Assembly (NCBI RefSeq): GCF_000013445.1
Contig: NC_007796.1
Span: 3,384,936 to 3,448,935, forward strand
Source: Methanospirillum hungatei JF-1
Lineage (GTDB): Archaea > Halobacteriota > Methanomicrobia > Methanomicrobiales > Methanospirillaceae
Length of the DNA: 64,000 nt
Direction of reading: 5' to 3'
The notes under the pieces were generated by a model. That model had not been told where the DNA came from. It searched no databases and saw nothing but the letters and a program-made list of their open reading frames with translations. The position numbers and the translations under genes were made by a program. Shown piece after piece: positions 17,273-44,525 of this stretch (the stretch's first letter is position 1; each line of letters starts with the position of its first letter).

Positions 17273-20200
17273 TTATGAAATCCATTCTATTCCAGGTTCA
17301 GCGGCAACATATGGTCTGACCCTGATATTATCATAGAATGCCTGACCTCCGGTTGTCCAGCCAACCAGACCTAGTCGGTCAGTGGTTGTTGTACCATAAT
17401 ACGCCCAATCAGTGCCGATTTTCACTCCATTGACATATGCATCATAATATCCGTTCCCCTTTAGATCAAGCCGGACAGTATACCACTGATTTGCAGTATA
17501 ACTGGTGAAATATGCCCAGGAAGGAGTTGCAGAACCGAATTTACCATTATTTGCAGCATAGAACCATGCACCTTTGATTCCAGAGGCATGACCGGAAAAC
17601 GCTGAAACAGTATGATACGCAGTGGTCTGGGCAGGTTTGATGGAATATTCAATAATTCCAGAACCAGCAGTCCAGGATTTATACGCTCCGCTACCGGCAA
17701 CACCGTTTGAAGTAAACCGCCCAACCTTGTTTGAACCCTCAGTTACCTGACTCATCGTAACACCGGAGTCCAGAGTCCAGCTGGATAAAACACTCTCTTC
17801 GAAGTCTTCAAAGACGGAGAAGATAGAACTTCCATCAGACTGACTTGTTGCTCCAGCACAGTTATAATATATACTGAATTGAGTTCCGGTACTGCTGATA
17901 CTTGAGGGTTTTATCCAGACAACTGCAACTCCATCACTGACGGATTCTATCCAATATGGAATTTGTGAACCTCCGGAATCAGTAAACCGGATATCACCAA
18001 AGTCTGAACGAACTGAACTACCAAGGTACACAGTATTCCCACTATCTGTCCCGCTTGTCCGGTAAAGGGTGAGTTTGAATGGAGTGTTGGTAACTGTTGA
18101 GCCTGTTCCAGATGAGACGATAAAGATCTTTTGATTCTGCCAGTCAGCAGGGAAACTGGGAGGAGCAGAGACTACAATCGTTTTTGTGATTGAACTGGGT
18201 GATTGTCCATAGGTAGAACTGACCGTGAGGGTGACAGAGTAGGTATTCGCACCGGTGAACGTGTGAGACGGGTTTTGTTCGGTAGAACTACCACTGTCAC
18301 CAAAGTCCCAGCTACGAGAAGTGATAGGTCCAGTGGACAGATCGGTGAAGGTGACATTGAGTGGATACTGACCGCTTGTCGGAGTGAAACTAAAATCGGC
18401 CATGAGAGGAGTGCTGGGATCTATCCATTCGATTCCCGGTTCAGTTGAAACATAAGGCCTGACGCGGATGTTATCATAGAATGCCTGACCTCCGGTTGTC
18501 CAGCCAACCAGACCTAGTCGGTCAGTGGTTGTTGTACCATAATACGCCCAATCAGTGCCGATTTTCACTCCATTGACATATGCATCATAATATCCGTTCC
18601 CCTTTAGATCAAGCCGGACAGTATACCACTGATTTGCAGTATAACTGGTGAAATATGCCCAGGAAGGAGTTGCAGAACCGAATTTACCATTATTTGCAGC
18701 ATAGAACCATGCACCTTTGATTCCAGAGGCATGACCGGAAAACGCTGAAACAGTATGATACGCAGTGGTCTGGGCAGGTTTGATGGAATATTCAATAATT
18801 CCAGAACCAGCAGTCCAGGATTTATACGCTCCGCTACCGGCAACACCGTTTGAAGTAAACCGCCCAACCTTGTTTGAACCCTCAGTTACCTGACTCATCG
18901 TAACACCGGAGTCCAGAGTCCAGCTGGATAAAACACTCTCTTCGAAGTCTTCAAAGACGGAGAAGATAGAACTTCCATCAGACTGACTTGTTGCTCCAGC
19001 ACAGTTATAATATATACTGAATTGAGTTCCGGTACTGCTGATACTTGAGGGTTTTATCCAGACAACTGCAACTCCATCACTGACGGATTCTATCCAATAT
19101 GGAATTTGTGAACCTCCGGAATCAGTAAACCGGATATCACCAAAGTCTGAACGAACTGAACTACCAAGGTACACAGTATTCCCACTATCTGTCCCGCTTG
19201 TCCGGTAAAGGGTGAGTTTGAATGGAGTGTTGGTAACTGTTGAGCCTGTTCCAGATGAGACGATAAAGATCTTTTGATTCTGCCAGTCAGCAGGGAAACT
19301 GGGAGGAGCAGAGACTACAATCGTTTTTGTGATTGAACTGGGTGATTGTCCATAGGTAGAACTGACCGTGAGGGTGACAGAGTAGGTATTCGCACCGGTG
19401 AACGTGTGAGACGGGTTTTGTTCGGTAGAACTACCACTGTCACCAAAGTCCCAGCTACGAGAAGTGATAGGTCCAGTGGACAGATCGGTGAAGGTGACAT
19501 TGAGTGGATACTGACCGCTTGTCGGAGTGAAACTAAAATCGGCCGCCAATTGTTCAGTTGTAACTCCACTTAACCATCCTCCATGAACAGGTCTGGTATT
19601 TGTAAACTTTCTGACACGGATGTTATCATAGTATGCCTGACCTCCGGTTGTCCACCCGACAAGACCTAGACGGTCAGTAGTGGTTGCACCATAATATGCC
19701 CAATCGGCCCCAATTTTCACTCCATTGACATAAGCATCATAATATCCGTTCCCCTTTAGATCAAGCCGGACAGTATACCACTGATTTGCAACATAACTGG
19801 TGAAATATGCCCAGGAAGGAGTTGCAGAGCCGAATTTACCAATATTTGCAGCAAAGAACCACGCACCTTTTACCCCGGAGGCATGGCCGGAAAACGCTGA
19901 AACAGTATGATACGCAGTGGTCTGGGCAGGTTTGATGGAATATTCAATAATTCCGGAACCAGCAGTCCAGGATTTATACGCTCCGCTACCGGCAACACCG
20001 TTTGAAGTAAACCGCCCAACCTTGTTTGAACCCTCAGTTACCTGACTGACGGTTACACCGGAATCCAGAGTCCAACCGTTTAACACACTCTCTTCAAAAT
20101 CCTCAAAGACATTAAAAACAGCACTCCCCGAGCTCTCACTCACTGCACTCCGATTCCCATAATACATCACAATCTGCGTCCCAGCCCTTGGAATACTCGG

Positions 20201-20761
20201 AACCTTCACCCACACAACCGCAGCGGTCGCATTTACCGACTCAATCCAGTAGGGTATCTGGGCACCAGCAACCGTAGTAAACCGGAGATCGCCATAATCT
20301 TCCCGGACATTGGTTCCAACATACACATTCTCCCCGGAATCAGTCCCGGTCGTTCGCCAGACTACAAACCGCATCTGATAATTCGTCAAATCCCCATCCG
20401 GACTCCCACCAATCGCATGAATCTTTCGATAACTCCATCCACTCAAAAACGCTGGAGGACCTGAAACCACGGTCACCGTGCTACTCACATAACCTAACGA
20501 CTCAAGATTTATTTCACTCATATTGACCGGCGTCTCGGAAAGTACAGACGTACCATCCGAATGCACCACACCCGTCGGACCAGGCGGAGCAACAACAGGC
20601 CCACTCACTGATGGGACCACTATCGGGGGACGGACAGACTCGGCCCCGGCAATTCCACTACAGGAAACCAGAAGAAGAGCGACGGTAATAATTAACAACA
20701 GAACAGTATACCCTATCCCGGAAGTATATGATCGGGTTTGACGAAGCGCGTTTGATCTCAT
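17273..20761 (-). CDS. Secreted DUF2341 / PKD-domain surface protein
   Basis: 1,162 residues. A signal peptide lies at about 1-41 (hydrophobic YTVLLLIITVALLLVSC, then GIAGA). Then come three modules of a DUF2341 domain (GWSYRKI; RxDFGDIRFT; IPYWIES; VWIK; YYGN/YYNC) plus a LamG-like segment (FEDFEES..WTLDSGVT), at roughly 100-400, 490-785 and 870-1162. Two PKD domains with WDFGDSGSSTEQNPSHTF lie between them (about 405-485 and 789-866). No C-terminal anchor is seen. The start is fixed by GAGGAGG 8 bases upstream. Promoter at 20952-21024. The role is probably glycan binding or cell-surface structure. Confidence 0.88.
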   Translation of the reverse strand: MRSNALRQTRSYTSGIGYTVLLLIITVALLLVSCSGIAGAESVRPPIVVPSVSGPVVAPPGPTGVVHSDGTSVLSETPVNMSEINLESLGYVSSTVTVVSGPPAFLSGWSYRKIHAIGGSPDGDLTNYQMRFVVWRTTGTDSGENVYVGTNVREDYGDLRFTTVAGAQIPYWIESVNATAAVVWVKVPSIPRAGTQIVMYYGNRSAVSESSGSAVFNVFEDFEESVLNGWTLDSGVTVSQVTEGSNKVGRFTSNGVAGSGAYKSWTAGSGIIEYSIKPAQTTAYHTVSAFSGHASGVKGAWFFAANIGKFGSATPSWAYFTSYVANQWYTVRLDLKGNGYYDAYVNGVKIGADWAYYGATTTDRLGLVGWTTGGQAYYDNIRVRKFTNTRPVHGGWLSGVTTEQLAADFSFTPTSGQYPLNVTFTDLSTGPITSRSWDFGDSGSSTEQNPSHTFTGANTYSVTLTVSSTYGQSPSSITKTIVVSAPPSFPADWQNQKIFIVSSGTGSTVTNTPFKLTLYRTSGTDSGNTVYLGSSVRSDFGDIRFTDSGGSQIPYWIESVSDGVAVVWIKPSSISSTGTQFSIYYNCAGATSQSDGSSIFSVFEDFEESVLSSWTLDSGVTMSQVTEGSNKVGRFTSNGVAGSGAYKSWTAGSGIIEYSIKPAQTTAYHTVSAFSGHASGIKGAWFYAANNGKFGSATPSWAYFTSYTANQWYTVRLDLKGNGYYDAYVNGVKIGTDWAYYGTTTTDRLGLVGWTTGGQAFYDNIRVRPYVSTEPGIEWIDPSTPLMADFSFTPTSGQYPLNVTFTDLSTGPITSRSWDFGDSGSSTEQNPSHTFTGANTYSVTLTVSSTYGQSPSSITKTIVVSAPPSFPADWQNQKIFIVSSGTGSTVTNTPFKLTLYRTSGTDSGNTVYLGSSVRSDFGDIRFTDSGGSQIPYWIESVSDGVAVVWIKPSSISSTGTQFSIYYNCAGATSQSDGSSIFSVFEDFEESVLSSWTLDSGVTMSQVTEGSNKVGRFTSNGVAGSGAYKSWTAGSGIIEYSIKPAQTTAYHTVSAFSGHASGIKGAWFYAANNGKFGSATPSWAYFTSYTANQWYTVRLDLKGNGYYDAYVNGVKIGTDWAYYGTTTTDRLGLVGWTTGGQAFYDNIRVRPYVAAEPGIEWIS
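17328..18401 (-). repeat. Internal direct repeat, copy A (period 1,143 bp)
   Basis: This 1,074-base stretch matches 18471-19544 with no difference that I could see. It covers a PKD domain, a DUF2341 domain and the following LamG-like segment. The period of 1,143 bases is 381 codons, so the frame is kept. Confidence 0.85.
18471..19544 (-). repeat. Internal direct repeat, copy B (period 1,143 bp)
   Basis: Second copy of the 17328-18401 unit. The first module of the protein (above 19545) has the same domains but is diverged over much of its length, so only units A and B reflect a recent duplication or gene conversion. Confidence 0.85.
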
Positions 20762-21565: not shown

Positions 21566-21799
21566 AAAGAAAACCAATACGGAGAGAATTTAAATCCTAA
21601 AACGACCTCGATTTTGAACCGTTGAAGATATAATTCGGGTAATTTTATTTTAATTATATAATTAGCCTTCAAAAGATAACTGTCAGTAAGGTACCAGGTA
21701 GCCCCACAATCGGGGTTTAGTCAAATGAATATTCTAACCCTCATCAATTAGACGAGCCTTGAATAGATATTTCGCATTATACCGACAATATATCCTGAT

Positions 21800-22486
21800 A
21801 TGGTTCCATCCTCAAAGACAAATTCATCTCCACCAGCTGACACTGAATCTATCAACAGCCCCCTTTCATTCGAAAAAGTATGGCTTATGTTTCAGGAAAC
21901 GGATAAAAGATTCAAAGAGACGGATAAAATACTGACGGAAAAATTTCAGGAGACTGACAGATTATTAACAGAAAAGTTTCAGGAAACTGACAGAATATTA
22001 ACAGAAAAGTTCCAGGAAACGGATAATAAATTTAAAGAGACAGATAAAAAACTCAACAAACTCGAGCAATTATTCACCTCACAATGGGGCAAACTTGTGG
22101 AGTCCCTGGTAGAAGGAGACGTAATTAAAATTCTGAATGAACGAGGGATAGAAGTTACTGATACCCTGAGGCGACGAACGGGACGACGTGATGGAATAGA
22201 CTACGAATTTGATATTATCGCAATAAATGGGACAGATATCGTAATCATTGAGGTAAAGACAACCTTAAGACCAGGAGATGTTCGTGATTTTTTGAAAAAA
22301 CTGAAGCAGGCAAAAAACTGGATGCCGGAATATTCAGATAAAAATATTTACGGGGCGATGGCATTCATATCCGAAGATGCAGGCACAGCAGCAATGGCAG
22401 AGAAAAAGGGACTTTTTGTCATACGAGCAACGGGAGATAGTGCAAGTATCATCAACCAGGAAAACTTTCAGCCGAAGATATGGTAA
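21800..22486 (+). CDS. Coiled-coil PD-(D/E)XK nuclease-like protein, tandem copy 1
   Basis: 228 residues. A short Ser/Pro-rich start is followed at 28-90 by a charged coiled coil made of 7- and 11-residue units (FKETDKK; KFQETDRLLTE). A globular domain follows: WGKLVESLVEGDVIKIL, then DGIDYEFDII and IVIIEVKTT, with Asp138, Glu151 and Lys153 fitting the PD-(D/E)XK core. This is the DUF3782-like class common in archaea and cyanobacteria; its function is unproven and it may not cut DNA. No signal peptide, so cytoplasmic. It is the first of three near-identical genes, differing in the number of coiled-coil units. Confidence 0.8.
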   Translation: MVPSSKTNSSPPADTESINSPLSFEKVWLMFQETDKRFKETDKILTEKFQETDRLLTEKFQETDRILTEKFQETDNKFKETDKKLNKLEQLFTSQWGKLVESLVEGDVIKILNERGIEVTDTLRRRTGRRDGIDYEFDIIAINGTDIVIIEVKTTLRPGDVRDFLKKLKQAKNWMPEYSDKNIYGAMAFISEDAGTAAMAEKKGLFVIRATGDSASIINQENFQPKIW

Positions 22487-22639
22487 TTCACCATATGGAC
22501 CTGGAATAAAATCCCCTTACTTGTACTCTATCAAAGCTTAAAATCAGTTAGTTCCAAGTGCTTTTATTCATGCTTCAACTTCATCAGATAGAAAAACTTT
22601 GAATAGATATTTCGCATTATACCGACAATATATCCTGAT

Positions 22640-23347
22640 ATGGTTCCATCCTCAAAGACAAATTCATCCCCACCAGCTGACACCGAATCTATCAATAGCC
22701 CCCTTTCATTCGAAAAAGTATGGCTTATGTTTCAGGAGACGGATAAAAGATTCAAAGAGACTGATAAAAAATTCAAAGAGACGGATAAAATACTGACGGA
22801 AAAGTTTCAGGAGACTGACAGATTATTAACAGAAAAGTTCCAGGAAACTGACAGAATATTAACAGAAAAGTTCCAGGAAACGGATAATAAATTTAAAGAG
22901 ACAGATAAAAAACTCAACAAACTCGAGCAATTATTCACCTCACAATGGGGCAAACTTGTGGAGTCCCTGGTAGAAGGAGACGTAATTAAAATTCTGAATG
23001 AACGAGGGATAGAAGTTACTGATACCCTGAGGCGACGAACGGGACGACGTGATGGAATAGACTACGAATTTGATATTATCGCAATAAATGGGACAGATAT
23101 CGTAATCATTGAGGTAAAGACAACCTTAAGACCAGGAGATGTTCGTGATTTTTTGAAAAAACTGAAGCAGGCAAAAAACTGGATGCCGGAATATTCAGAT
23201 AAAAATATTTACGGGGCGATGGCATTCATATCCGAAGATGCAGGCACAGCAGCAATGGCAGAGAAAAAGGGACTTTTTGTCATACGAGCAACGGGAGATA
23301 GTGCAAGTATCATCAACCAGGAAAACTTTCAGCCGAAGATATGGTAA
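22640..23347 (+). CDS. Coiled-coil PD-(D/E)XK nuclease-like protein, tandem copy 2
   Basis: 235 residues. Identical to copy 1 except for one extra 7-residue unit (KFKETDK) near residue 40; the nuclease-like domain is the same. Several silent changes near the 5' end (for example at the codons for the Ser-Pro start) are shared with copy 3 and not copy 1, so copies 2 and 3 separated last. The intergenic spacer upstream is duplicated with the gene, so each copy should have the same promoter. Confidence 0.8.
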   Translation: MVPSSKTNSSPPADTESINSPLSFEKVWLMFQETDKRFKETDKKFKETDKILTEKFQETDRLLTEKFQETDRILTEKFQETDNKFKETDKKLNKLEQLFTSQWGKLVESLVEGDVIKILNERGIEVTDTLRRRTGRRDGIDYEFDIIAINGTDIVIIEVKTTLRPGDVRDFLKKLKQAKNWMPEYSDKNIYGAMAFISEDAGTAAMAEKKGLFVIRATGDSASIINQENFQPKIW

Positions 23348-23500
23348 TTCACCATATGGACCTGGAATAAAATCCCCTTACTTGTACTCTATCAAAGCTT
23401 AAAATCAGTTAGTTCCAAGTGCTTTTATTCATGCTTCAACTTCATCAGATAGAAAAACTTTGAATAGATATTTCGCATTATACCGACAATATATCCTGAT

Positions 23501-24175
23501 ATGGTTCCATCCTCAAAGACAAATTCATCCCCACCAGCTGACACCGAATCTATCAATAGCCCCCTTTCATTCGAAAAAGTATGGCTTATGTTTCAGGAGA
23601 CGGATAAAAGATTCAAAGAGACTGATAAAAAATTCAAAGAGACGGATAAAATACTGACTGAAAAGTTTCAGGAGACTGACAGATTATTAACAGAAAAGTT
23701 CCAGGAAACGGATAATAAATTTAAAGAGACGGATAAAAAACTCAACAAACTCGAGCAATTATTCACCTCACAATGGGGCAAACTTGTGGAATCCCTGGTA
23801 GAAGGAGACGTAATTAAAATTCTGAATGAACGAGGGATAGAAGTTACTGATACCCTGAGGCGACGAACGGGACGACGTGATGGAATAGACTACGAATTTG
23901 ATATTATCGCAATAAATGGGACAGATATCGTAATCATTGAGGTAAAGACAACCTTAAGACCAGGAGATGTTCGTGATTTTTTGAAAAAACTGAAGCAGGC
24001 AAAAAACTGGATGCCGGAATATTCAGATAAAAATATTTACGGGGCGATGGCATTCATATCCGAAGATGCAGGCACAGCAGCAATGGCAGAGAAAAAGGGA
24101 CTTTTTGTCATACGAGCAACGGGAGATAGTGCAAGTATCATCAACCAGGAAAACTTTCAGCCGAAGATATGGTAA
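23501..24175 (+). CDS. Coiled-coil PD-(D/E)XK nuclease-like protein, tandem copy 3
   Basis: 224 residues. It has the extra 7-residue unit of copy 2 but lacks one 11-residue unit (RILTEKFQETD). The rest is identical. The sequence after its stop differs from that after copies 1 and 2, which marks the outer edge of the repeat array. Three different coiled-coil lengths on one unchanged catalytic domain point to slippage or unequal recombination in the coil repeats. Confidence 0.8.
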   Translation: MVPSSKTNSSPPADTESINSPLSFEKVWLMFQETDKRFKETDKKFKETDKILTEKFQETDRLLTEKFQETDNKFKETDKKLNKLEQLFTSQWGKLVESLVEGDVIKILNERGIEVTDTLRRRTGRRDGIDYEFDIIAINGTDIVIIEVKTTLRPGDVRDFLKKLKQAKNWMPEYSDKNIYGAMAFISEDAGTAAMAEKKGLFVIRATGDSASIINQENFQPKIW

Positions 24176-24183
24176 TTCACCAT

Positions 24184-24737: not shown

Positions 24738-24867
24738 GAGGTTGTTGCACAACTAAAATGTCATTTCCTCAAGAGCACAATTTCCATTCGGTTGGAACGT
24801 TAATTGGCAATGAAATTTATGAACTTTGCCTCATTGTACTATCGGTTTAGAGTTATGCAACAGCCTC
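24738..24867. mobile_element. MITE 1 (IS1182-related)
   Basis: 130 bases with ends GAGGTTGTTGCACAACT and GAGGCTGTTGCATAACT (read inward), flanked by duplicated TAGT (24734-24737, 24868-24871). No coding capacity. Inner sequence shares long identity with MITE 2, in inverse orientation. The terminal repeats match the two IS1182-type elements here, whose transposases are the likely mobilisers. Confidence 0.9.
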
Positions 24868-25497
24868 TAGTATAATTTTGAATTTCTCCAAAAAATGAAG
24901 ATGTAAACATCAGAAAGGCGAATCAAATAAAGATACACCAGAATACTCCTTCACCGAAGGAAGAAATCATGGGCCTGTGATAATCCCTTTTTAGCGTTGA
25001 TTTGCCCGCACCATTCCTGCAGAAAATACCCGGGATCTCTCCACTGCGGACCAAAACCGGACATCCGGGCATACACAGAACCGGCCTAAAGTCATTGGCT
25101 TTGTAAACCTGAAGAAGAACCAGTTTTGGATCCTCTCCCTCCGAAGCCCTGCCCGAAAAAAATCGACTCCAATCAAACCTCTGACGTGATTCGAGAGATA
25201 ATCTTAAAATTTAAAATTAAACTTGAGGTGGGGTTAAATAAATATAAGTATATTACTCATATTCCCAATTTTGCATTACATAAATACGGGTATATTACCA
25301 TCTATTCAGAAAATTACGCGACAAAGGGATCGAATTAGATTTAATATCAGAACTAACCTCAATTAACAGTCTGTTTGCCTAAAATCCGAATAATAATAAG
25401 CATATAGAGGCACGCTATCATTACAGGATTCGCCACCTGGAATTCCACGATGAGAAAGAGATCCGGACATAGCGACAGCCTATGAAAGAGGTCTACT
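24868..25497. other. No confident gene
   Basis: Several AT-rich runs with TATA-like sequences near 25235-25275. On the minus strand 25359-25559 a frame ends with a hydrophobic stretch like a membrane anchor (VANPVMIACLYMLIII). It may be the tail of a decayed exported protein together with the frame at 25498-25806, but this is not secure. Confidence 0.3.
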
Positions 25498-25844: not shown

Positions 25845-28800
25845 TTAGAGCCCCCCGACCTCGTTCGAAACTGAGCTTACTCCTTGAACTCCATTACTGA
25901 CCTGCAATGTGACGGTGTAGGTCTGCGGATTATAAAACGTATGAACCGGGTTCTGAACCGTGGAGGTGTTCCCATCACCAAAGTTCCAGGTCCGGGATGC
26001 CACTGATCCCTCTGATACATCATAAAACCTGATAGTCAGAGGATAAACCACCGTTTCCGGCACCCCATAGAATTTCGCGAGAACCTGGGACACCGCACGA
26101 ACGCTGGTATATGCATTGACCCGGCCCCCGGTCACACATTTCCCGGATAAACCGCTCTTTACATCCACACCATTCATGATTGCTGTCTTTATCTGATCCA
26201 TTGTCAGCGCAGGATTTGCTGCCTTAAGTAATGCCGCAACACCAGCAACATGGGGAGTTGCCATCGAGGTCCCGGACATGGTAGTATATCGATTCCCCGG
26301 ATAGGTGCTGTAAATACTCACACCAGGAGCTGCAACATCAACCGTGCTTGCTCCATAATTTGAGAACGAAGCGAGTACATCGCGTGAGTCGGTTGCTGCA
26401 ACGGTGAGGATATTCGCATTTGGCAGTGAACCGGGTGAGTGTGGATTTGTATCAGTATTGAGTGCACTGTTCCCCGCTGCACAGATAAACAGAGCATCCG
26501 GCATACTGCTGATAGAATCCTGAAGAGCGGTATCAATTCCGCTTCCACCCCATGAATTTGAGAAGATTCTCACTCCTCGGGAGTATCCCCAGGCAAAGGC
26601 CTCAATCGCATCACTGGTATATCCTGACCCGGATGAATCAAGGAACTTGAGTGGCATGATCTTCACATTCCAGTTCACACCAGCGACCCCAATACCATTG
26701 TTCCCGACCGCTCCTATTGTACCCGCACAATGGGTCCCATGACCGTGATCATCCATCGGATTACTATCATTATTCCGGGTATCATACCCGGCAATCATAT
26801 TTGCTGCTAAATCCGGATGATTATAGTCAACCCCGGTATCCACCACAGCAACAATGACATCAGATGACCCGGTCACATAGGACCAGGCTTCAGGGGCATC
26901 AATATCTGCATCAGCAGTTCCCCCCGTCTGTCCGGTATTATGGAGACCATACAGGGAAGAGAACGAAGGATCATTTGGAATGACCTGGCCCCCTGGTGAA
27001 ACAGCAGTCATCGTTGCACTGACGGGTGTCGTTTGACCTGAAGTGACCGACACACTCTGTGACCAGTCCTGATACCCGGTTTTGGTCAGCCTGATCGTAT
27101 GAGTTCCTGCCGGAACATCACTCAAAGTGGTAGGAGTGGTAACTCCCTTTGCCTCACTATCCAGATACACGGCCGCACCAGTCGGATTTGAACTTATTGA
27201 TATCGATCCTTTTGGAACTGCAGTAAGAGTGGCCGATACTGTCGCAGTCCCACCGGATGGAACTGTAACCGAGGTAGAATAATCTGTATACCCGGTCAGT
27301 TTCACCGTGACGGTATGGGATGTTGCAGTCACGGATGTGAGGGTATTCGGAGTTACCTTCCCCGTATTGGCCCCGTCAAGCCAGATCTGGGCCCCGGACG
27401 GACTGGAGGATACACTTATTGATCCAGTCTGGGCAGTTATCCCGTAGTTGATGTTGAAGATTGAAAAGTAATGATTCTGGTACCCCTGGGACGACTTTCC
27501 GCTGTAGTCCATGTTCATCTTAAGTCTGAAAAGACCATTCGGGCGCTTAGAATTGCTGCCCCAGCTGTTCAGGACTAACCAGTACCGCTGGTTTGGATCA
27601 CTGCTGGTATCATCATAACCGACTATGACAACCGCATGACCACCTCCGGATGATCCATAAGCGATATTGTTATACGGATCCGGATTCCAGAGAGTCGATT
27701 CGGTCTGATATGCCCAAAATGAATTAAATGCAGACCACGATGAACTGTCCGGAAGGAAAAACGCCCACCAGACCGCTTTGTTTGCATCGATCTGTGCCTT
27801 GATATTGGCAATAGCCTGTGCTTGTGAGACTCCGTTTGTCGATATCCAGCTGGTGGAAATGCTGGTTATCGGGTAGTTCGGAGAGGTTGCAATACTTGAG
27901 GCAGGGGTCTGTGCCCCGCATCCATATGAGCAGGCATACCGGTCATTGTAATAGGCATTGGTATTTGACCAGGGGATAACCTGTTTAAATCCGGAGGTGC
28001 TGTGGAAATTTGCAAACGTGCTGGCCCATCCGCCATTGCATGCACCGGTTATTGCACTTCCGCCATTATAATTCGAATCAAAATATTGTATTGACAGTCG
28101 ATCCTTTATCCCATTCTGAACGGTCAGGGCATTCTCGATAACCCCGGTTGAAGCCCATACCCAGCAGTTCCCACAGTTCCCCTGGTTCCGCTCCGATGGG
28201 GTGTACTGGATATTGGAAAGAAGGCTTTTACTCCCCAACGTGGTAGAGAGAGGCGCATTTTCCACCTTAACAGCGGCATTGTAATCGCTCTGGATCTGTG
28301 CAATATCTTCAAGAGACAACCGCATGTATCCAAATCCTTCCGTCTCATTCATCGTAGAAATGGCACCAGCAGATACACTGGATGGAGGTGCCGAGGGATG
28401 GTCATTCTGATCAGAGGGTGCGGGAGATGGCCCTCCAGAGGGGGTACTCACCTTACCCTGAACAATAGAATCACGGTATGAAACGGCATTCTGATTTACA
28501 TTCACGGGGATGTGGATCTTTTCAACCGGATATGCCTGATACACATAATCCGGCTGTGCATACTCAACCATCGGGTTCATCCGGTACAGCTCGATTGCTT
28601 TCATGGTCCCGGTAGAGTTTGGAACACTGACGACCTGCATACCCTCCACGCCAAGAGTTTTTGAATCAGCTATCACCGTGGCACCCATGGCTGCATGTGC
28701 TTCTGCCTGTACCTGGCTTAAGGATGACTTTTCAGAGCCTAAAGCAGATTTAAACTTAACAATAACCCGGTCAGGTGCATATTCAGGGCTCTCCAACGAA

Positions 28801-29102
28801 TTATTAAGAGTATTATTCATGGACAATCCACTCTGCTCTGTTGGCGTCAGACCTGACATTGTACTGCTCATCACTGGGGACTGGACAATGCTCATAACTG
28901 GTCTACTAACCGGTGGGCCAGCCACTTGCGGTACCGGACCGACTATCGATGGCGGGGAATGATATGTTGGAACTCCCACATCTGGAGGTTTGACCACCGT
29001 CGATAGAACGGGAGTAAATGGATCTGAAGTCGCCGCAACCGTATGTAAACCCATACTGATAATCAAGAGAGAAATGAAAATGAATGTTAGTTGTTTCATC
29101 AT
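25845..29102 (-). CDS. Secreted double protease 1: papain-type plus subtilisin-type
   Basis: 1,085 residues. Signal peptide about 1-24. A subtilisin-type propeptide lies at about 108-190 (DRVIVKFK; MNPMVEYAQPDYVYQ). A C1A papain-like domain, about 295-550, has Gln307, Cys313 (QGNCGNCW), His489 (GGGHAVVIVG) and Asn512 (LNSWG). Two PEGA domains follow at about 560-630 and 631-700. An S8 subtilisin domain, about 705-1000, has Asp755 (VVDTGVD), His788 (HGHGTHCAG), Asn878 and Ser946 (GTSMATPHVAG). A PKD domain closes the chain at about 1005-1085. All key residues of both proteases are present. The start is supported by GAGGGTGATC 4 bases upstream. Substrate unknown; likely surface maturation or external protein digestion. 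Confidence 0.92.
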   Translation of the reverse strand: MMKQLTFIFISLLIISMGLHTVAATSDPFTPVLSTVVKPPDVGVPTYHSPPSIVGPVPQVAGPPVSRPVMSIVQSPVMSSTMSGLTPTEQSGLSMNNTLNNSLESPEYAPDRVIVKFKSALGSEKSSLSQVQAEAHAAMGATVIADSKTLGVEGMQVVSVPNSTGTMKAIELYRMNPMVEYAQPDYVYQAYPVEKIHIPVNVNQNAVSYRDSIVQGKVSTPSGGPSPAPSDQNDHPSAPPSSVSAGAISTMNETEGFGYMRLSLEDIAQIQSDYNAAVKVENAPLSTTLGSKSLLSNIQYTPSERNQGNCGNCWVWASTGVIENALTVQNGIKDRLSIQYFDSNYNGGSAITGACNGGWASTFANFHSTSGFKQVIPWSNTNAYYNDRYACSYGCGAQTPASSIATSPNYPITSISTSWISTNGVSQAQAIANIKAQIDANKAVWWAFFLPDSSSWSAFNSFWAYQTESTLWNPDPYNNIAYGSSGGGHAVVIVGYDDTSSDPNQRYWLVLNSWGSNSKRPNGLFRLKMNMDYSGKSSQGYQNHYFSIFNINYGITAQTGSISVSSSPSGAQIWLDGANTGKVTPNTLTSVTATSHTVTVKLTGYTDYSTSVTVPSGGTATVSATLTAVPKGSISISSNPTGAAVYLDSEAKGVTTPTTLSDVPAGTHTIRLTKTGYQDWSQSVSVTSGQTTPVSATMTAVSPGGQVIPNDPSFSSLYGLHNTGQTGGTADADIDAPEAWSYVTGSSDVIVAVVDTGVDYNHPDLAANMIAGYDTRNNDSNPMDDHGHGTHCAGTIGAVGNNGIGVAGVNWNVKIMPLKFLDSSGSGYTSDAIEAFAWGYSRGVRIFSNSWGGSGIDTALQDSISSMPDALFICAAGNSALNTDTNPHSPGSLPNANILTVAATDSRDVLASFSNYGASTVDVAAPGVSIYSTYPGNRYTTMSGTSMATPHVAGVAALLKAANPALTMDQIKTAIMNGVDVKSGLSGKCVTGGRVNAYTSVRAVSQVLAKFYGVPETVVYPLTIRFYDVSEGSVASRTWNFGDGNTSTVQNPVHTFYNPQTYTVTLQVSNGVQGVSSVSNEVGGL

Positions 29103-29396: not shown

Positions 29397-32300
29397 TCAA
29401 CCTCCCTGTATCTCCAGCACAGAGGCATGAGTACCAACACCGTCATTTACCTGAAGCGTGACAGTATAGATGCCTGGATTATAATAGGTGTGCGATGGAT
29501 TAACTTCACCAGTAGTATTTCCATCCCCAAAGTTCCAGAGTCTTGAGGAGATTATCCCTTCAGAGACATCATAGAACCGGATTCGAAGAGGTTTGATTGT
29601 TGTATCAGGAACCCCGTAAAACTTTGCCTTAAGTGGAAGGGAGGAGGCCAGACTGGCGAACGCATTGATCCGACCTCCGGTAACACATCTACCAGATAGT
29701 CCGGATTTGAGATCAACATTATTCATTATGGCGGATTTTATCTGGGATGCTGAATATGAAGGGTTCTGTGCCTTTATGAGGGCTGCAACACCTGCCACAT
29801 GCGGGGTCGCCATAGAGGTCCCGCTCATGGTGCCATAGGAGTTGCCTTTGGTAGTACTCATGATAGACACACCCGGTGCAGCAACATCAACCGTTGTCGC
29901 ACCATAATTTGCCCAGGAAGCTCTTTGATCATATCGGTTTGTTGCTGTTACAGAGAGAATATTCACATTAGCCAGCGATGATGGAGAATGGGGATATGAA
30001 TCAGTATTATAGGGATTTCCATATATATCGCCATTTCCGGCCGCACATACAAAGAGTGCATCGGGATAGAGATTAATGGAATCACGAAGAGCATAATCGA
30101 TACCATAGGCTCCCCATGAGTTTGAGAAAATTCTCGCTCCCTTTGCATATCCCCAGGCAAAAGCCTCAATCGCATCACTTGTAGAGCCATACCCGTCAGC
30201 TCCAAGGAACCGAAGAGGCATAATTTTCACATTCCAGTTCACCCCGGTCACACCAATCCCATTATTTCCGACTGCTCCAATCGTCCCGGCACAATGAGTC
30301 CCATGACCATGTTCATCCATGGGATTTGGATCATTAGAACCATAGAAATCATACCCGGGAGTATTTGTTACCGGATCCCTCCAGATATTTGCGACCAGAT
30401 CTGGGTGATTGTAATCCACACCGGTATCAACAACCGCGACAATAACCCCTAGTGAACCGGTGGTTATGCTCCATGCTTCCGGAGCATCTATATCGGCATC
30501 ACCTGTTCCTCCACTCTGTCCGGTATTATGAAGTCCCCACAGACTGCTAAATGAAGGATCATTCGGAAGAACCTGGGTGCCAGGGTTAATTTGATTCAAA
30601 GTTCCGGAGACTATACTTGTCTGACCCTCATGAACCATCACAACGGTCGAATATGAATTATATCCAGAGAGAACCAGTGATACAGCATGTGAACCAATCG
30701 GCACGGAAGATAACGTCGCAGGTGTGCTCTTTGTGGTATCAACCCCGTCAAGCCAGATCCGTGCACCGGAAGGAGTTGAACTAACTGCAATACTCCCGGT
30801 AGGTATTGGTGAAAGGGTGGCAGATATGACAGTTGTCTGTCCTGAAGTTACAGATACCGAACGAGTATACTCCTGGTACCCGCTGAGTTTCAAGGTCACC
30901 GAATAGGTTCCGATTGGAACTGATGTTTGAGTATAGGGAGTAACCTGACCGGTGTTCACCCCATCAATCCAGATTTGGGCCCCGGATGGATTAGAATTGA
31001 AAGCAATCGTCCCGCCAGAAGGATTTGAGGCTGTATATTTAAAATATGCAGCACCTTCCCCGATACGGAGCCTTCCTGAGAAAATTCTAAACCACCCTGA
31101 TTCGCCCCAGGATGTCCCCCAACTGTTCTTACAAATCCAGTAAGTCCGGCCATTTAACGTTCCCCATCCCACAATAATAATTGCATGATTTGCATAGGAT
31201 GCACTGGACGTACTGTCAAGTATACCTGATCGATATGAATCAAAGGTGCTCTCTGCATAGACTCCGGCGGCAACCGGACCATAGAGATAAATCGCCGTCT
31301 TTATCGCATCATCAGATGGGATACTCCACTCATTCCCTCCACCGACATACCCCCAGGTCTCTCCTGCGGCCGTATCTACCGAATACCTGGTATACCCGGA
31401 CAGACTCTTACACGTACCATCCGAACCGGTATAGGGATAGTTCGCCTCGGTAACCGTCCCGACTCCACCACTCAAACCCGCCTTATTTACAAAGTATGCC
31501 ATTGCCGTGAAGAGTCCGCCATTACATCCACGCTGATCACCTGCACAGTTCACCAGGTACTGCTCAGCATAATCAGGGTTCATACCCGGATTTCCGGATT
31601 TTATCTCTTTATATGATTCAAAGGCACCGGTTGTTGCAAATGCCCAGCAACTCCCGCAACTTCCCTGATTCTTAATAGGGGTGGTATAATCTCCACCATT
31701 GTTCCGCCAGTCAAACGAAGTGGGAAGTCCTTCCATTGGTGTGATACCGGCGCCACTCACTATCGTGCTGCTTTTCAGATCATGCCGGAGTCCTTTCAGA
31801 TGTTCACGCTCTTCTGGACTCATGAGCATGATTGGATTTACCGCTGCAGTCCAGGAGAGATTATGTTCTTTCACATAGGCATTTATGTCATCCACTTCTG
31901 CTTGTGCTGCATTATATCGCTCTTCTTCGCTCAACGGATCTTCAAATCCTACTACCCCGCTCTGATATCCCGATGATAAACAGGTCGACCAGGAAGGCGG
32001 TGATGATGGAGGAGGAACATTCGGAACCTGAACTGTAGACGGTTTTACCTGAATAGTTTCAGGATAGGGGACTGTCTGCTGATTTACAGACACCGGAGGA
32101 TCAATAATTGTTGAATTTATAGAATACAGGTAATCCGGCTGGGCATACTCGACCATCGGGTTCATCCGATATAGTTCAATCGCTTTCATGGTCCCGGTAG
32201 TGTTGGGAACACTGACAACCTGCATTCCCTCAACACCCAGAGTGGATGGGTCTGCAAGAACCGTTGCGCCCATGGCTGCGTGTGCCTCTGCCTGAATCTG

Positions 32301-32687
32301 ATTTACAGAAGATAAGGGAGAAAAGTGGTCTGTCTTAAACTTTACAATAACCCGGTCAGGAATATATGCTTGTGCACATACAGAACTATTTTGTGTAATG
32401 TTTGTAGAAGGGAGTAATTGTTCAGGTTCCACCTTGGAGGATATTATACCTGACAGAACTGGTGACTGTACAATGCCTGATACCGGCCCATCTCCTTGTA
32501 AAGTTGACTTTGGAGTGACTGGGATTACAATCGACGGCAGGGAATATGGAGGAGCGACACCACTATCAGGAGGTTTCATCACCGCCTGTGAACCGGGCAA
32601 TATCGTAACTGATGTTGCCGCTCCCGACTCTAAACCGATACTTATGAGCAATATCAGAATGAATATTAATACTATTGGCTTGGACAT
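29397..32687 (-). CDS. Secreted double protease 2: papain-type plus subtilisin-type
   Basis: 1,096 residues and the same order as protease 1. Signal peptide about 1-24; S8 propeptide about 108-190. An added segment at 245-305 (EEERYNAAQAEVDDINAY) may serve as the papain propeptide. The C1A domain, 320-555, is more papain-like: Gln341, Cys347 (QGSCGSCWAF), RGCNGG, His501, Asn521 (KNSWGTSWGE). PEGA domains are at 560-630 and 631-700. The S8 domain has Asp754, His795, Asn885 and Ser958, and a PKD domain lies at 1020-1096. The S8 domains and propeptides of the two paralogs are very similar, while their papain domains have diverged strongly. Promoter at 32728-32800. Confidence 0.92.
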   Translation of the reverse strand: MSKPIVLIFILILLISIGLESGAATSVTILPGSQAVMKPPDSGVAPPYSLPSIVIPVTPKSTLQGDGPVSGIVQSPVLSGIISSKVEPEQLLPSTNITQNSSVCAQAYIPDRVIVKFKTDHFSPLSSVNQIQAEAHAAMGATVLADPSTLGVEGMQVVSVPNTTGTMKAIELYRMNPMVEYAQPDYLYSINSTIIDPPVSVNQQTVPYPETIQVKPSTVQVPNVPPPSSPPSWSTCLSSGYQSGVVGFEDPLSEEERYNAAQAEVDDINAYVKEHNLSWTAAVNPIMLMSPEEREHLKGLRHDLKSSTIVSGAGITPMEGLPTSFDWRNNGGDYTTPIKNQGSCGSCWAFATTGAFESYKEIKSGNPGMNPDYAEQYLVNCAGDQRGCNGGLFTAMAYFVNKAGLSGGVGTVTEANYPYTGSDGTCKSLSGYTRYSVDTAAGETWGYVGGGNEWSIPSDDAIKTAIYLYGPVAAGVYAESTFDSYRSGILDSTSSASYANHAIIIVGWGTLNGRTYWICKNSWGTSWGESGWFRIFSGRLRIGEGAAYFKYTASNPSGGTIAFNSNPSGAQIWIDGVNTGQVTPYTQTSVPIGTYSVTLKLSGYQEYTRSVSVTSGQTTVISATLSPIPTGSIAVSSTPSGARIWLDGVDTTKSTPATLSSVPIGSHAVSLVLSGYNSYSTVVMVHEGQTSIVSGTLNQINPGTQVLPNDPSFSSLWGLHNTGQSGGTGDADIDAPEAWSITTGSLGVIVAVVDTGVDYNHPDLVANIWRDPVTNTPGYDFYGSNDPNPMDEHGHGTHCAGTIGAVGNNGIGVTGVNWNVKIMPLRFLGADGYGSTSDAIEAFAWGYAKGARIFSNSWGAYGIDYALRDSINLYPDALFVCAAGNGDIYGNPYNTDSYPHSPSSLANVNILSVTATNRYDQRASWANYGATTVDVAAPGVSIMSTTKGNSYGTMSGTSMATPHVAGVAALIKAQNPSYSASQIKSAIMNNVDLKSGLSGRCVTGGRINAFASLASSLPLKAKFYGVPDTTIKPLRIRFYDVSEGIISSRLWNFGDGNTTGEVNPSHTYYNPGIYTVTLQVNDGVGTHASVLEIQGG

Positions 32688-33581: not shown

Positions 33582-33711
33582 GAGGCTGTTGCATAACTCT
33601 AAACCAATAGTACAATGAGGCAAAGCCCATAAATTTCATTGCCAATTAACGTTCCAACCGAATGGAAATTGTGCTCTTGAGGAAACGACATTTTAGTTGT
33701 GCAACAACCTC
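33582..33711. mobile_element. MITE 2 (IS1182-related)
   Basis: 130 bases, ends GAGGCTGTTGCATAACT and GAGGTTGTTGCACAACT (read inward), flanked by duplicated TTAT (33578-33581 and 33712-33715). It is nearly the reverse complement of MITE 1. It inserted exactly at the stop codon of the AAA/DUF4143 gene, and the target duplication keeps the TAA intact. Confidence 0.9.
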
Positions 33712-37097: not shown

Positions 37098-37733
37098 ATG
37101 ACTACAATAAAAAATAAAATCATCATTCAGGGACCAAAAGTTCACGATGTGGGATATAGAGTTTTTCTCTTAAATCGTGCACTCCAATCAGGACTTATTG
37201 GCTTTTCTGCATTTAATCATACTTTGCCAGATAATATACAGCAGATTGAGATCTGCATAGAAGGAGATACTGAATCCATTGAAGAGTTTACCACAGATCT
37301 GCATGATAATATCCCCGTTCATGCCATCGTTGATACAATTTCCATTGAGCCATACGGTAAGCGGGTAATCACGATAATGGACTATATGCACCTTGTCCAG
37401 GTTGAACAACTGGATAAAGGAATTCCTGCGATTTTAAGTATTCAATCATCACAGGAAAAAATGTTGGAGAAACAGGATCGGATGCTCGAGAAACAGGATC
37501 AAATGCTCGAGAAACAAGATGTGATGATTGGTAAACAGGATCAGATGCTGGAAAAACAGGACCAAATGTTGGGAAAACAAGATCTGATGATTGACACCCA
37601 GAAACTGACCAACAAAGAGATACAAACATTACGATATGACTTAAAAACCGAAATGAATGAACGTTTCAATAAAATTGAGCATGAATTGCAGGAGGTAAAG
37701 AATGCTCTCCATAAACACGGAATCATGGCATAA
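37098..37733 (+). CDS. Acylphosphatase-like domain fused to a heptad-repeat coiled coil
   Basis: 211 residues. Residues 5-95 are an acylphosphatase fold: the motif VHDVGYR with Arg21 and a downstream GFSAFN with Asn40 as the likely catalytic pair; the loop is one residue longer than usual (GWVRN). Residues 115-165 are seven-residue units of the type EKQDQML, repeated about seven times, followed by a further coiled coil (TEMNERFNKIEHELQEVKNAL). Acylphosphatases are normally near 90 residues and free-standing. The coil suggests an oligomer or scaffold. Monocistronic; no signal peptide. Confidence 0.85.
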   Translation: MTTIKNKIIIQGPKVHDVGYRVFLLNRALQSGLIGFSAFNHTLPDNIQQIEICIEGDTESIEEFTTDLHDNIPVHAIVDTISIEPYGKRVITIMDYMHLVQVEQLDKGIPAILSIQSSQEKMLEKQDRMLEKQDQMLEKQDVMIGKQDQMLEKQDQMLGKQDLMIDTQKLTNKEIQTLRYDLKTEMNERFNKIEHELQEVKNALHKHGIMA

Positions 37734-44167: not shown

Positions 44168-44232
44168 CTTCCTTTTTTTTCGAAACGTATTTTTATCAGT
44201 TTTTAGCACATCAATCAATTTATACAATTATA

Positions 44233-44363
44233 GAGGCTTTTGCATAACTAAAATGTCATTTCCGCAAGAAGATAATTTCCATTCGAGTGGAACCTAAAAT
44301 CAGCGATAAAAAATCTGGTTTTTTCCTCATTGTACCAGCGGTTTAAAGTTATGCAACAACCTC
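44233..44363. mobile_element. MITE 3 (IS1182-related)
   Basis: 131 bases with ends GAGGCTTTTGCATAACT and GAGGTTGTTGCATAACT (read inward). The flanks TATA and TGTA are an imperfect duplication. The inner part is diverged from MITEs 1 and 2, so it is an older copy. It lies downstream of the archaellins; 44364-44525 holds no gene. Confidence 0.82.
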
Positions 44364-44525
44364 TGTATTAACCCATGTTCTTTTCTACACAATATTTAAT
44401 CACCTCTGAAAACCAATGCGAACGGACAAAGGAGGATAAATAGTAATTTCATGAATTTAAACCGGGTACATACCCTTATGATTGTTTTATTTAGGTGGGA
44501 CCCTAAAAAATAAAATAAAAAACAA

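Follow-up and report, generated by a model that had tools for sequence, protein, structure and literature searches.

A tandem array of stalked PD-(D/E)XK genes in Methanospirillum hungatei JF-1 and the probable crossover origin of its middle copy

In a 64,000-nucleotide stretch of the Methanospirillum hungatei JF-1 genome (hereafter the window; all positions are window positions on the plus strand unless another contig is named), three open reading frames of 228, 235, and 224 amino acids lie head to tail. The locus is probably a recent tandem array of genes for a stalked nuclease, with a putatively oligomerizing stalk and a predicted DNA-cutting domain, in which the middle gene (copy 2) would have arisen by unequal crossover.

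Layout and surroundings of the array

Copy 1 (21800 to 22486; 228 aa), copy 2 (22640 to 23347; 235 aa), and copy 3 (23501 to 24175; 224 aa) were delimited as open reading frames, and their description draws further on a family alignment (A1) for copy 1, on ordered variable sites with an outgroup for copy 2, and on a flank alignment to the M. hungatei M59 metagenome-assembled genome (MAG) for copy 3. They bear out the initial annotation, which described three near-identical tandem genes whose catalytic domain and spacers are constant and whose coils contain different sets of 7- and 11-residue units. The catalytic parts of the three proteins are identical at 141/141 amino acids, with 0, 1, and 1 nucleotide differences per 423, and their PD-(D/E)XK domains occupy positions 22070 to 22483 in copy 1, 22931 to 23344 in copy 2, and 23759 to 24172 in copy 3. 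The two 153-nt spacers (spacer 1, 22487 to 22639; spacer 2, 23348 to 23500) are the same at 153/153 positions. Each start codon is preceded by a 40-nt leader (21760 to 21799, 22600 to 22639, and 23461 to 23500 for copies 1, 2, and 3) that is the same in all three copies and almost identical in the M59 locus, and upstream of this leader JF-1 and M59 align poorly. Copy 3 retains the ancestral 3′ flank, which is identical to that of the M59 locus at 130 of 166 aligned positions; the first ~54 nt of spacer 1 are a diverged copy of this same flank (~75% identity).

The differences among the copies amount to one in-frame 21-nt unit, one in-frame 33-nt unit, and silent changes. The stalk measures 59 aa in copy 1 (21893 to 22069; unit spacings 7-11-11-11-7), 66 aa in copy 2 (22733 to 22930; 7-7-11-11-11-7), and 55 aa in copy 3 (23594 to 23758; 7-7-11-11-7). 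The extra 21-nt unit of copy 2 (7 aa; 22750 to 22770) is present in copy 3 and absent from copy 1 and M59, and its extra 33-nt unit (11 aa; 22824 to 22856) is present in copy 1 (21963 to 21995) and absent from copy 3 and M59. In a DNA alignment, copies 1 and 3 are separated by nine point differences, every one silent; the synonymous-to-nonsynonymous count for this pair is distorted by the alignment of coil units.

On the 3′ side of the array (24738 to 24870) lies a dispersed repeat of ~130 bp that looks like a MITE, with imperfect terminal inverted repeats (GAGGTTGTTGCACAACT / GAGGCTGTTGCATAACT) and more than 12 other JF-1 matches at up to 97% identity; elsewhere in the window it is found at about 33582 to 33711 and 44227 to 44368. 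The gene at 17273 to 20761 encodes a 1,162-aa protein, PKD domain-like by eye, with an internal direct duplication of ~1.15 kb (a 1,693-nt self-match at 94.9%), so tandem amplification has occurred in this neighboring gene too. Adjacent paralogues with papain-like and subtilisin-like segments (by eye) at 25845 to 29102 and 29397 to 32687 make up a second tandem duplication beside the array. At 37098 to 37733, an acylphosphatase-like start is followed by MLEKQDQ heptad repeats (by eye), and a similar gene sits 3′ of a tandem pair of family genes in M. stamsii (L033:7679-8131). Elsewhere in JF-1, the family has solitary genes at 1,997 kb and 505 kb, a copy near 3,378 kb with its N-terminal region out of frame, and, at ~724 kb, a decayed copy with eight stop codons (L007, G000:C1:723997-724353). 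Sigma-70 promoter and terminator scans, which are unsuited to archaea, gave results at or below chance.

Mosaic structure of copy 2

Variable sites were polarized with the syntenic gene of the M59 MAG (L035), whose flanking protease gene is 87% identical to that of JF-1. In the M59 copy, which is frameshifted, both extra units are missing and the stalk, counted in the same way, is the shortest at 48 aa, so that relative to this outgroup copy 1 carries one extra unit of 33 nt (11 aa), copy 3 one of 21 nt (7 aa), and copy 2 both. Taken in order along the gene, the sites at which copies 2 and 3 agree are 21829, 21844, 21856, 21898, the 21-nt insert, and 21943; then come the 33-nt insert, 22042, and 22102, where copy 2 agrees with copy 1. 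On the 5′ side of the middle of the coil, copies 2 and 3 match at all variable sites except one, and 3′ of it, copies 1 and 2 match at every variable site. Both agreements include states that are derived with respect to M59, namely, 21856, 21943, and the 21-nt insert for copies 2 and 3, and the 33-nt insert and 22102 for copies 1 and 2.

On these sequence comparisons, copy 2 is a mosaic in which the 5′ part of copy 3 is joined within the coil to the 3′ part of copy 1. The inferred crossover interval (22840 to 22849) comprises the ~8 shared nucleotides between the last copy 3-like and the first copy 1-like site and falls inside the second 11-residue unit. The original claim that the split between copies 2 and 3 was the last one is therefore only half right: it holds in the 5′ half of the gene and is contradicted in the 3′ half, where copy 2 equals copy 1 and the two have the derived 33-nt insert and the derived base at 22102 in common. 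The order of the internal sites fits a crossover at 9 of 10 sites (permutation P = 0.095 with either orientation counted, which is borderline alone), and site 21937 is out of order, for which the crossover reading needs a private change in copy 3. Because the sites are few and their order alone is borderline, the case for a crossover rests also on the spacers and on the two polarized inserts.

At the start there would have been two copies, the upstream one with the additional 11-aa unit and the downstream one with the additional 7-aa unit, and a single unequal crossover inside the repetitive coil would then have generated a third, hybrid gene. One such event accounts for the length of copy 2 (235 = 228 + 7 = 224 + 11) with no further event required, and the orientation of the hybrid and the duplicated spacer match the signature expected of unequal crossover in a two-copy array. 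Against this account, the start of the spacer, at ~75% identity, stands beside near-identical coding DNA, so that gene conversion before the crossover is needed as well, by which the older pair was probably homogenized.

The near identity of copies 2 and 3 in the 5′ half, together with a site order that is only borderline significant by itself, could also be reconciled with a simple serial duplication, in which these two copies were the last to form, as duplicates of a single gene, and independent gains and losses of coil units followed, with no hybrid involved. We think this unlikely, given that copy 3 must then have lost the 33-nt unit and position 22102 must be homoplasious, each polarized by M59, and it is the less parsimonious account once that outgroup is applied. 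We attach scarcely any probability to the locus being an assembly artifact or a set of decaying duplicates without function: although the related M59 locus carries a frameshift and the JF-1 copy at 724 kb has decayed, there are no nonsynonymous changes between copies 1 and 2 or between copies 2 and 3. The JF-1 genome was finished with Sanger reads at 14.5× coverage (PMC4704411) and each copy has distinct silent changes, on which grounds an assembly artifact was rejected; for the same reasons, chance is very unlikely.

Predicted nuclease domain and modular stalk

Within the C-terminal domain, D145, E158, and K160 (copy 2 numbering) are invariant in 51 homologues, and E108 is nearly so. The AF2 model, a single-chain prediction (pLDDT of 84), consists of one long helix (residues 24 to 121) followed by a PD-(D/E)XK domain, and the nearest PDB folds recovered with Foldseek are EndoMS/NucS, AF1548, and Can2 (probability of 1.00; E values of 3e-4 to 8e-3 for EndoMS and Can2), with identities of only 11 to 19% in the best fold matches. 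A sequence search for a solved homologue returned nothing above chance-like coiled-coil matches. The invariant D, E, and K residues and the fold make the first description of the domain as PD-(D/E)XK-like a fair one, and the likeliest reading of sequence and model is that the JF-1 proteins are oligomeric, stalk-mounted DNA nucleases.

In catalytic fold and D...ExK residues, the JF-1 proteins are like EndoMS/NucS, Hjc, and Can2/Card1-type nucleases, but unlike Can2 and EndoMS/NucS they have neither a CARF nor a NucS N-terminal domain. PADLOC matches to Csx1/CARF models (E value of 2e-7) cover the coil plus nuclease only (model positions 160 to 283 of 320), and a CARF nuclease of the Can2/Card1 type was ruled out, there being no CARF domain in the AF2 model. 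The Pfam model of Hjc (PF01870) scores 22.1 against a cutoff of 21.1, over model positions 3 to 50 of 93 only, a similarity to about half of the model that leaves membership in Hjc doubtful; the NCBIfam Hjc model (NF040854) is unlisted for copy 2, and a relative (L036) scores 15.5 against its cutoff of 70. Neither a kinase nor an immunity domain was seen in the JF-1 proteins.

According to Hartmann et al. (eLife 2016, PMC4786415), DUF3782 represents the coiled-coil stalks of prokaryotic PD-(D/E)XK endonucleases, and the structure of a DUF3782-related coil from Thermosinus was solved in that study of trimeric alpha/beta coiled coils. Like the DUF3782 proteins described there (PMC4786415), the JF-1 copies join a coiled-coil stalk, at the N terminus, to a PD-(D/E)XK domain, an architecture present in the AF2 model. 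The DUF3782 model (PF12644) scores the three copies at 12.5, 12.5, and 13.3 bits versus a gathering cutoff of 24.4, which a distant relative from the same search (L079) passes with 28.2 bits. “DUF3782-like,” as the initial annotation had it, is thus fair as a description of the kind of protein but does not extend to membership, as the copies fall under the Pfam cutoff. Unlike the stalks of the crenarchaeal DUF3782 members, which have nonads and beta-layers (PMC4786415), the JF-1 stalk is built of ETD heptads and hendecads, and tandem stalk-length variants, a feature of JF-1, are not mentioned for DUF3782 in the passages of PMC4786415 consulted.

Family-wide, the spacing between ETD boxes is 7 in 108 cases, 11 in 24, and 14, 18, 21, or 32 in the other seven; every spacing is therefore 7, 11, or a sum of 7s and 11s, and no nonad spacing occurs in the family stalks. 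Seven residues correspond to about two turns of a helix and 11 to about three, and because both unit sizes hold the helix on one face, the stalk can change in length without breaking the coil. At the DNA level, the units are near-identical 21- and 33-nt repeats that are gained or lost whole. In the set used for the spacing analysis (family alignment A1, with 51 members), stalks are 12 to 86 aa long and catalytic domains 133 to 142 aa, with one of 154 aa in a C-terminally frameshifted gene (L019). Of the 70 pairs of members whose catalytic parts are at least 65% identical, 65 have catalytic domains of equal length and 8 have stalks of equal length. Stalk length may be a tolerated, possibly tuned, variable in proteins that the stalk would oligomerize and whose C-terminal domain would cut DNA, probably in genome maintenance or defense.

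Relatives in Methanospirillum and its near relatives were found in 8 of 232 genomes of the order, and more distant ones are spread patchily over Bacteroidota, Chlorobiota/Ignavibacteria, Kapabacteria, Spirochaetes, Desulfobacterota, and others; solitary members with a single stalk length are common. No conserved partner gene or operon was found across 78 family loci, and searches of viral contigs, phages, and plasmids for the family as phage or plasmid cargo yielded no match.

Recurrence and possible roles of stalk-length variants

Comparison with related loci, which the initial annotation had proposed, uncovered tandem stalk-length variants in M. stamsii, a Desulfatirhabdium MAG, and a Bacteroides MAG. 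M. stamsii Pt1 has two tandem copies that are 93% identical in DNA and exactly one heptad (7 aa) apart. The Desulfatirhabdium MAG contains about 14 family matches, and four subfamilies there each have near-identical catalytic domains on different stalks (differences of 3 to 98 aa). Over the N terminus plus stalk, pair A differs by 28 aa, the four B genes measure 57, 68, 54, and 43 aa, pair C is 7 aa apart across the shared part, and the D genes measure 67, 74, and 165 aa, the differences of 91 and 98 aa from the last being 13 × 7 and 14 × 7. That 165-aa N-terminal and stalk region (L146:249-1229) contains several kinds of seven-residue-based repeats and is by far the longest stalk found. The catalytic DNA of D1 and D2 differs at 1 of 220 positions in the first half versus 11 of 221 in the second (Fisher P = 0.006), a skew that hints at recombination there too. 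A 9,863-bp contig (L142, G238:C115) has near-identical family genes with different stalks at its two ends; the gene may have broken the assembly there or served as a site of recombination. In the Bacteroides MAG (labeled Bacteroides fragilis), a tandem pair is 7 aa apart, and the second gene has an in-frame TAG. The Desulfatirhabdium and Bacteroides data come from MAGs, in which repeat assembly may contain errors.

Over these sets, 16 of 16 within-set pairs (3 from JF-1, 1 from M. stamsii, 11 from Desulfatirhabdium, and 1 from Bacteroides) have stalks of unequal length and catalytic domains of equal length; pairs from the same set are not independent of one another. Synonymous-to-nonsynonymous counts are 6:0 for JF-1 copies 1 and 2, 3:0 for copies 2 and 3, 30:16 for the M. 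stamsii pair, and 34:5 for Desulfatirhabdium pair A, such that purifying selection is strong in all three tandem sets measured. Substitutions within tandem sets are mostly silent, and the proteins are therefore maintained while stalk length shifts. The mosaic copy 2 and the recurrence of whole-unit stalk changes in other lineages favor recombination-driven variation, the first of two explanations offered at the outset; the hybrid origin of copy 2 and recombination-driven variation of the stalk are both supported at the sequence level.

Similar designs are known elsewhere. The Spok meiotic drivers of Podospora combine a variable-number coiled-coil repeat, with a suggested role in self-recognition, and a PD-(D/E)XK nuclease (PMC6660238). 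The JF-1 proteins resemble them in their N-terminal coil with a variable repeat number, PD-(D/E)XK domain, patchy spread, and duplication, but Spok additionally contains a kinase and one more domain, and the likeness is an analogy only, with no homology shown (PMC6660238). The head-to-tail BG genes of chicken, in which unequal crossing-over produces hybrids and copy number variation and in which heptad-repeat coils vary in length, exemplify the same evolutionary process as the JF-1 array (PMC5938342), again by analogy and not homology; unlike the JF-1 genes, they encode vertebrate receptors and have 21-nt exons (PMC5938342). A nonexhaustive search of the open-access literature found no earlier report of tandem stalk-length variants in this prokaryotic family.

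Stalk length could itself serve as an assembly code, with different unit numbers giving separate, mutually insulated homo-oligomers or a Spok-like self-recognition, in which case the difference in length would be what is selected. The difference in stalk length at equal catalytic length in every tandem pair, the strong purifying selection in the three measured sets, and the equal coil repeat length of the mutually resistant Spok1 and Spok4 (PMC6660238) are in its favor; however, repeat instability alone would also separate close copies, the 16 of 16 is a raw count from pairs that are not independent within a set, and no conserved partner or immunity gene lies beside the family, and we judge such a code unlikely. 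In its broadest form, a widespread family of prokaryotic nucleases would use the length of the stalk as a modular address, so that each tandem copy assembles with its own kind alone, and crossovers in the coil would mint new lengths without new mutations; this prokaryotic parallel to the self-recognition by length proposed for fungal killer proteins is, in our estimation, distinctly unlikely. The second explanation offered at the outset, in which copies with unlike stalks combine into hetero-oligomers of differing reach on DNA, strikes us as quite improbable: identical N termini and catalytic domains would not prevent mixing, and the 11-aa unit that separates copies 2 and 3 is arithmetically ~1.6 nm of helix, but the sequence does not require mixing, nothing found favors it, and family members on their own with one stalk length are common.

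With copy 2 read as the product of a single unequal crossover, the origin of the three lengths is well explained, and the observation itself is real and recurrent. A one-locus curiosity becomes a pattern that recurs in archaea, Desulfobacterota, and Bacteroidota, in which near-identical nuclease domains are mounted on stalks that vary by whole coiled-coil units and the rest of the protein is held almost constant by selection. With stalks of 55, 59, and 66 aa on one catalytic domain, the JF-1 array offers natural variants for studying how the length of the coil affects assembly, reach, and specificity, and it documents how a single crossover in a repetitive coil can yield a new length.
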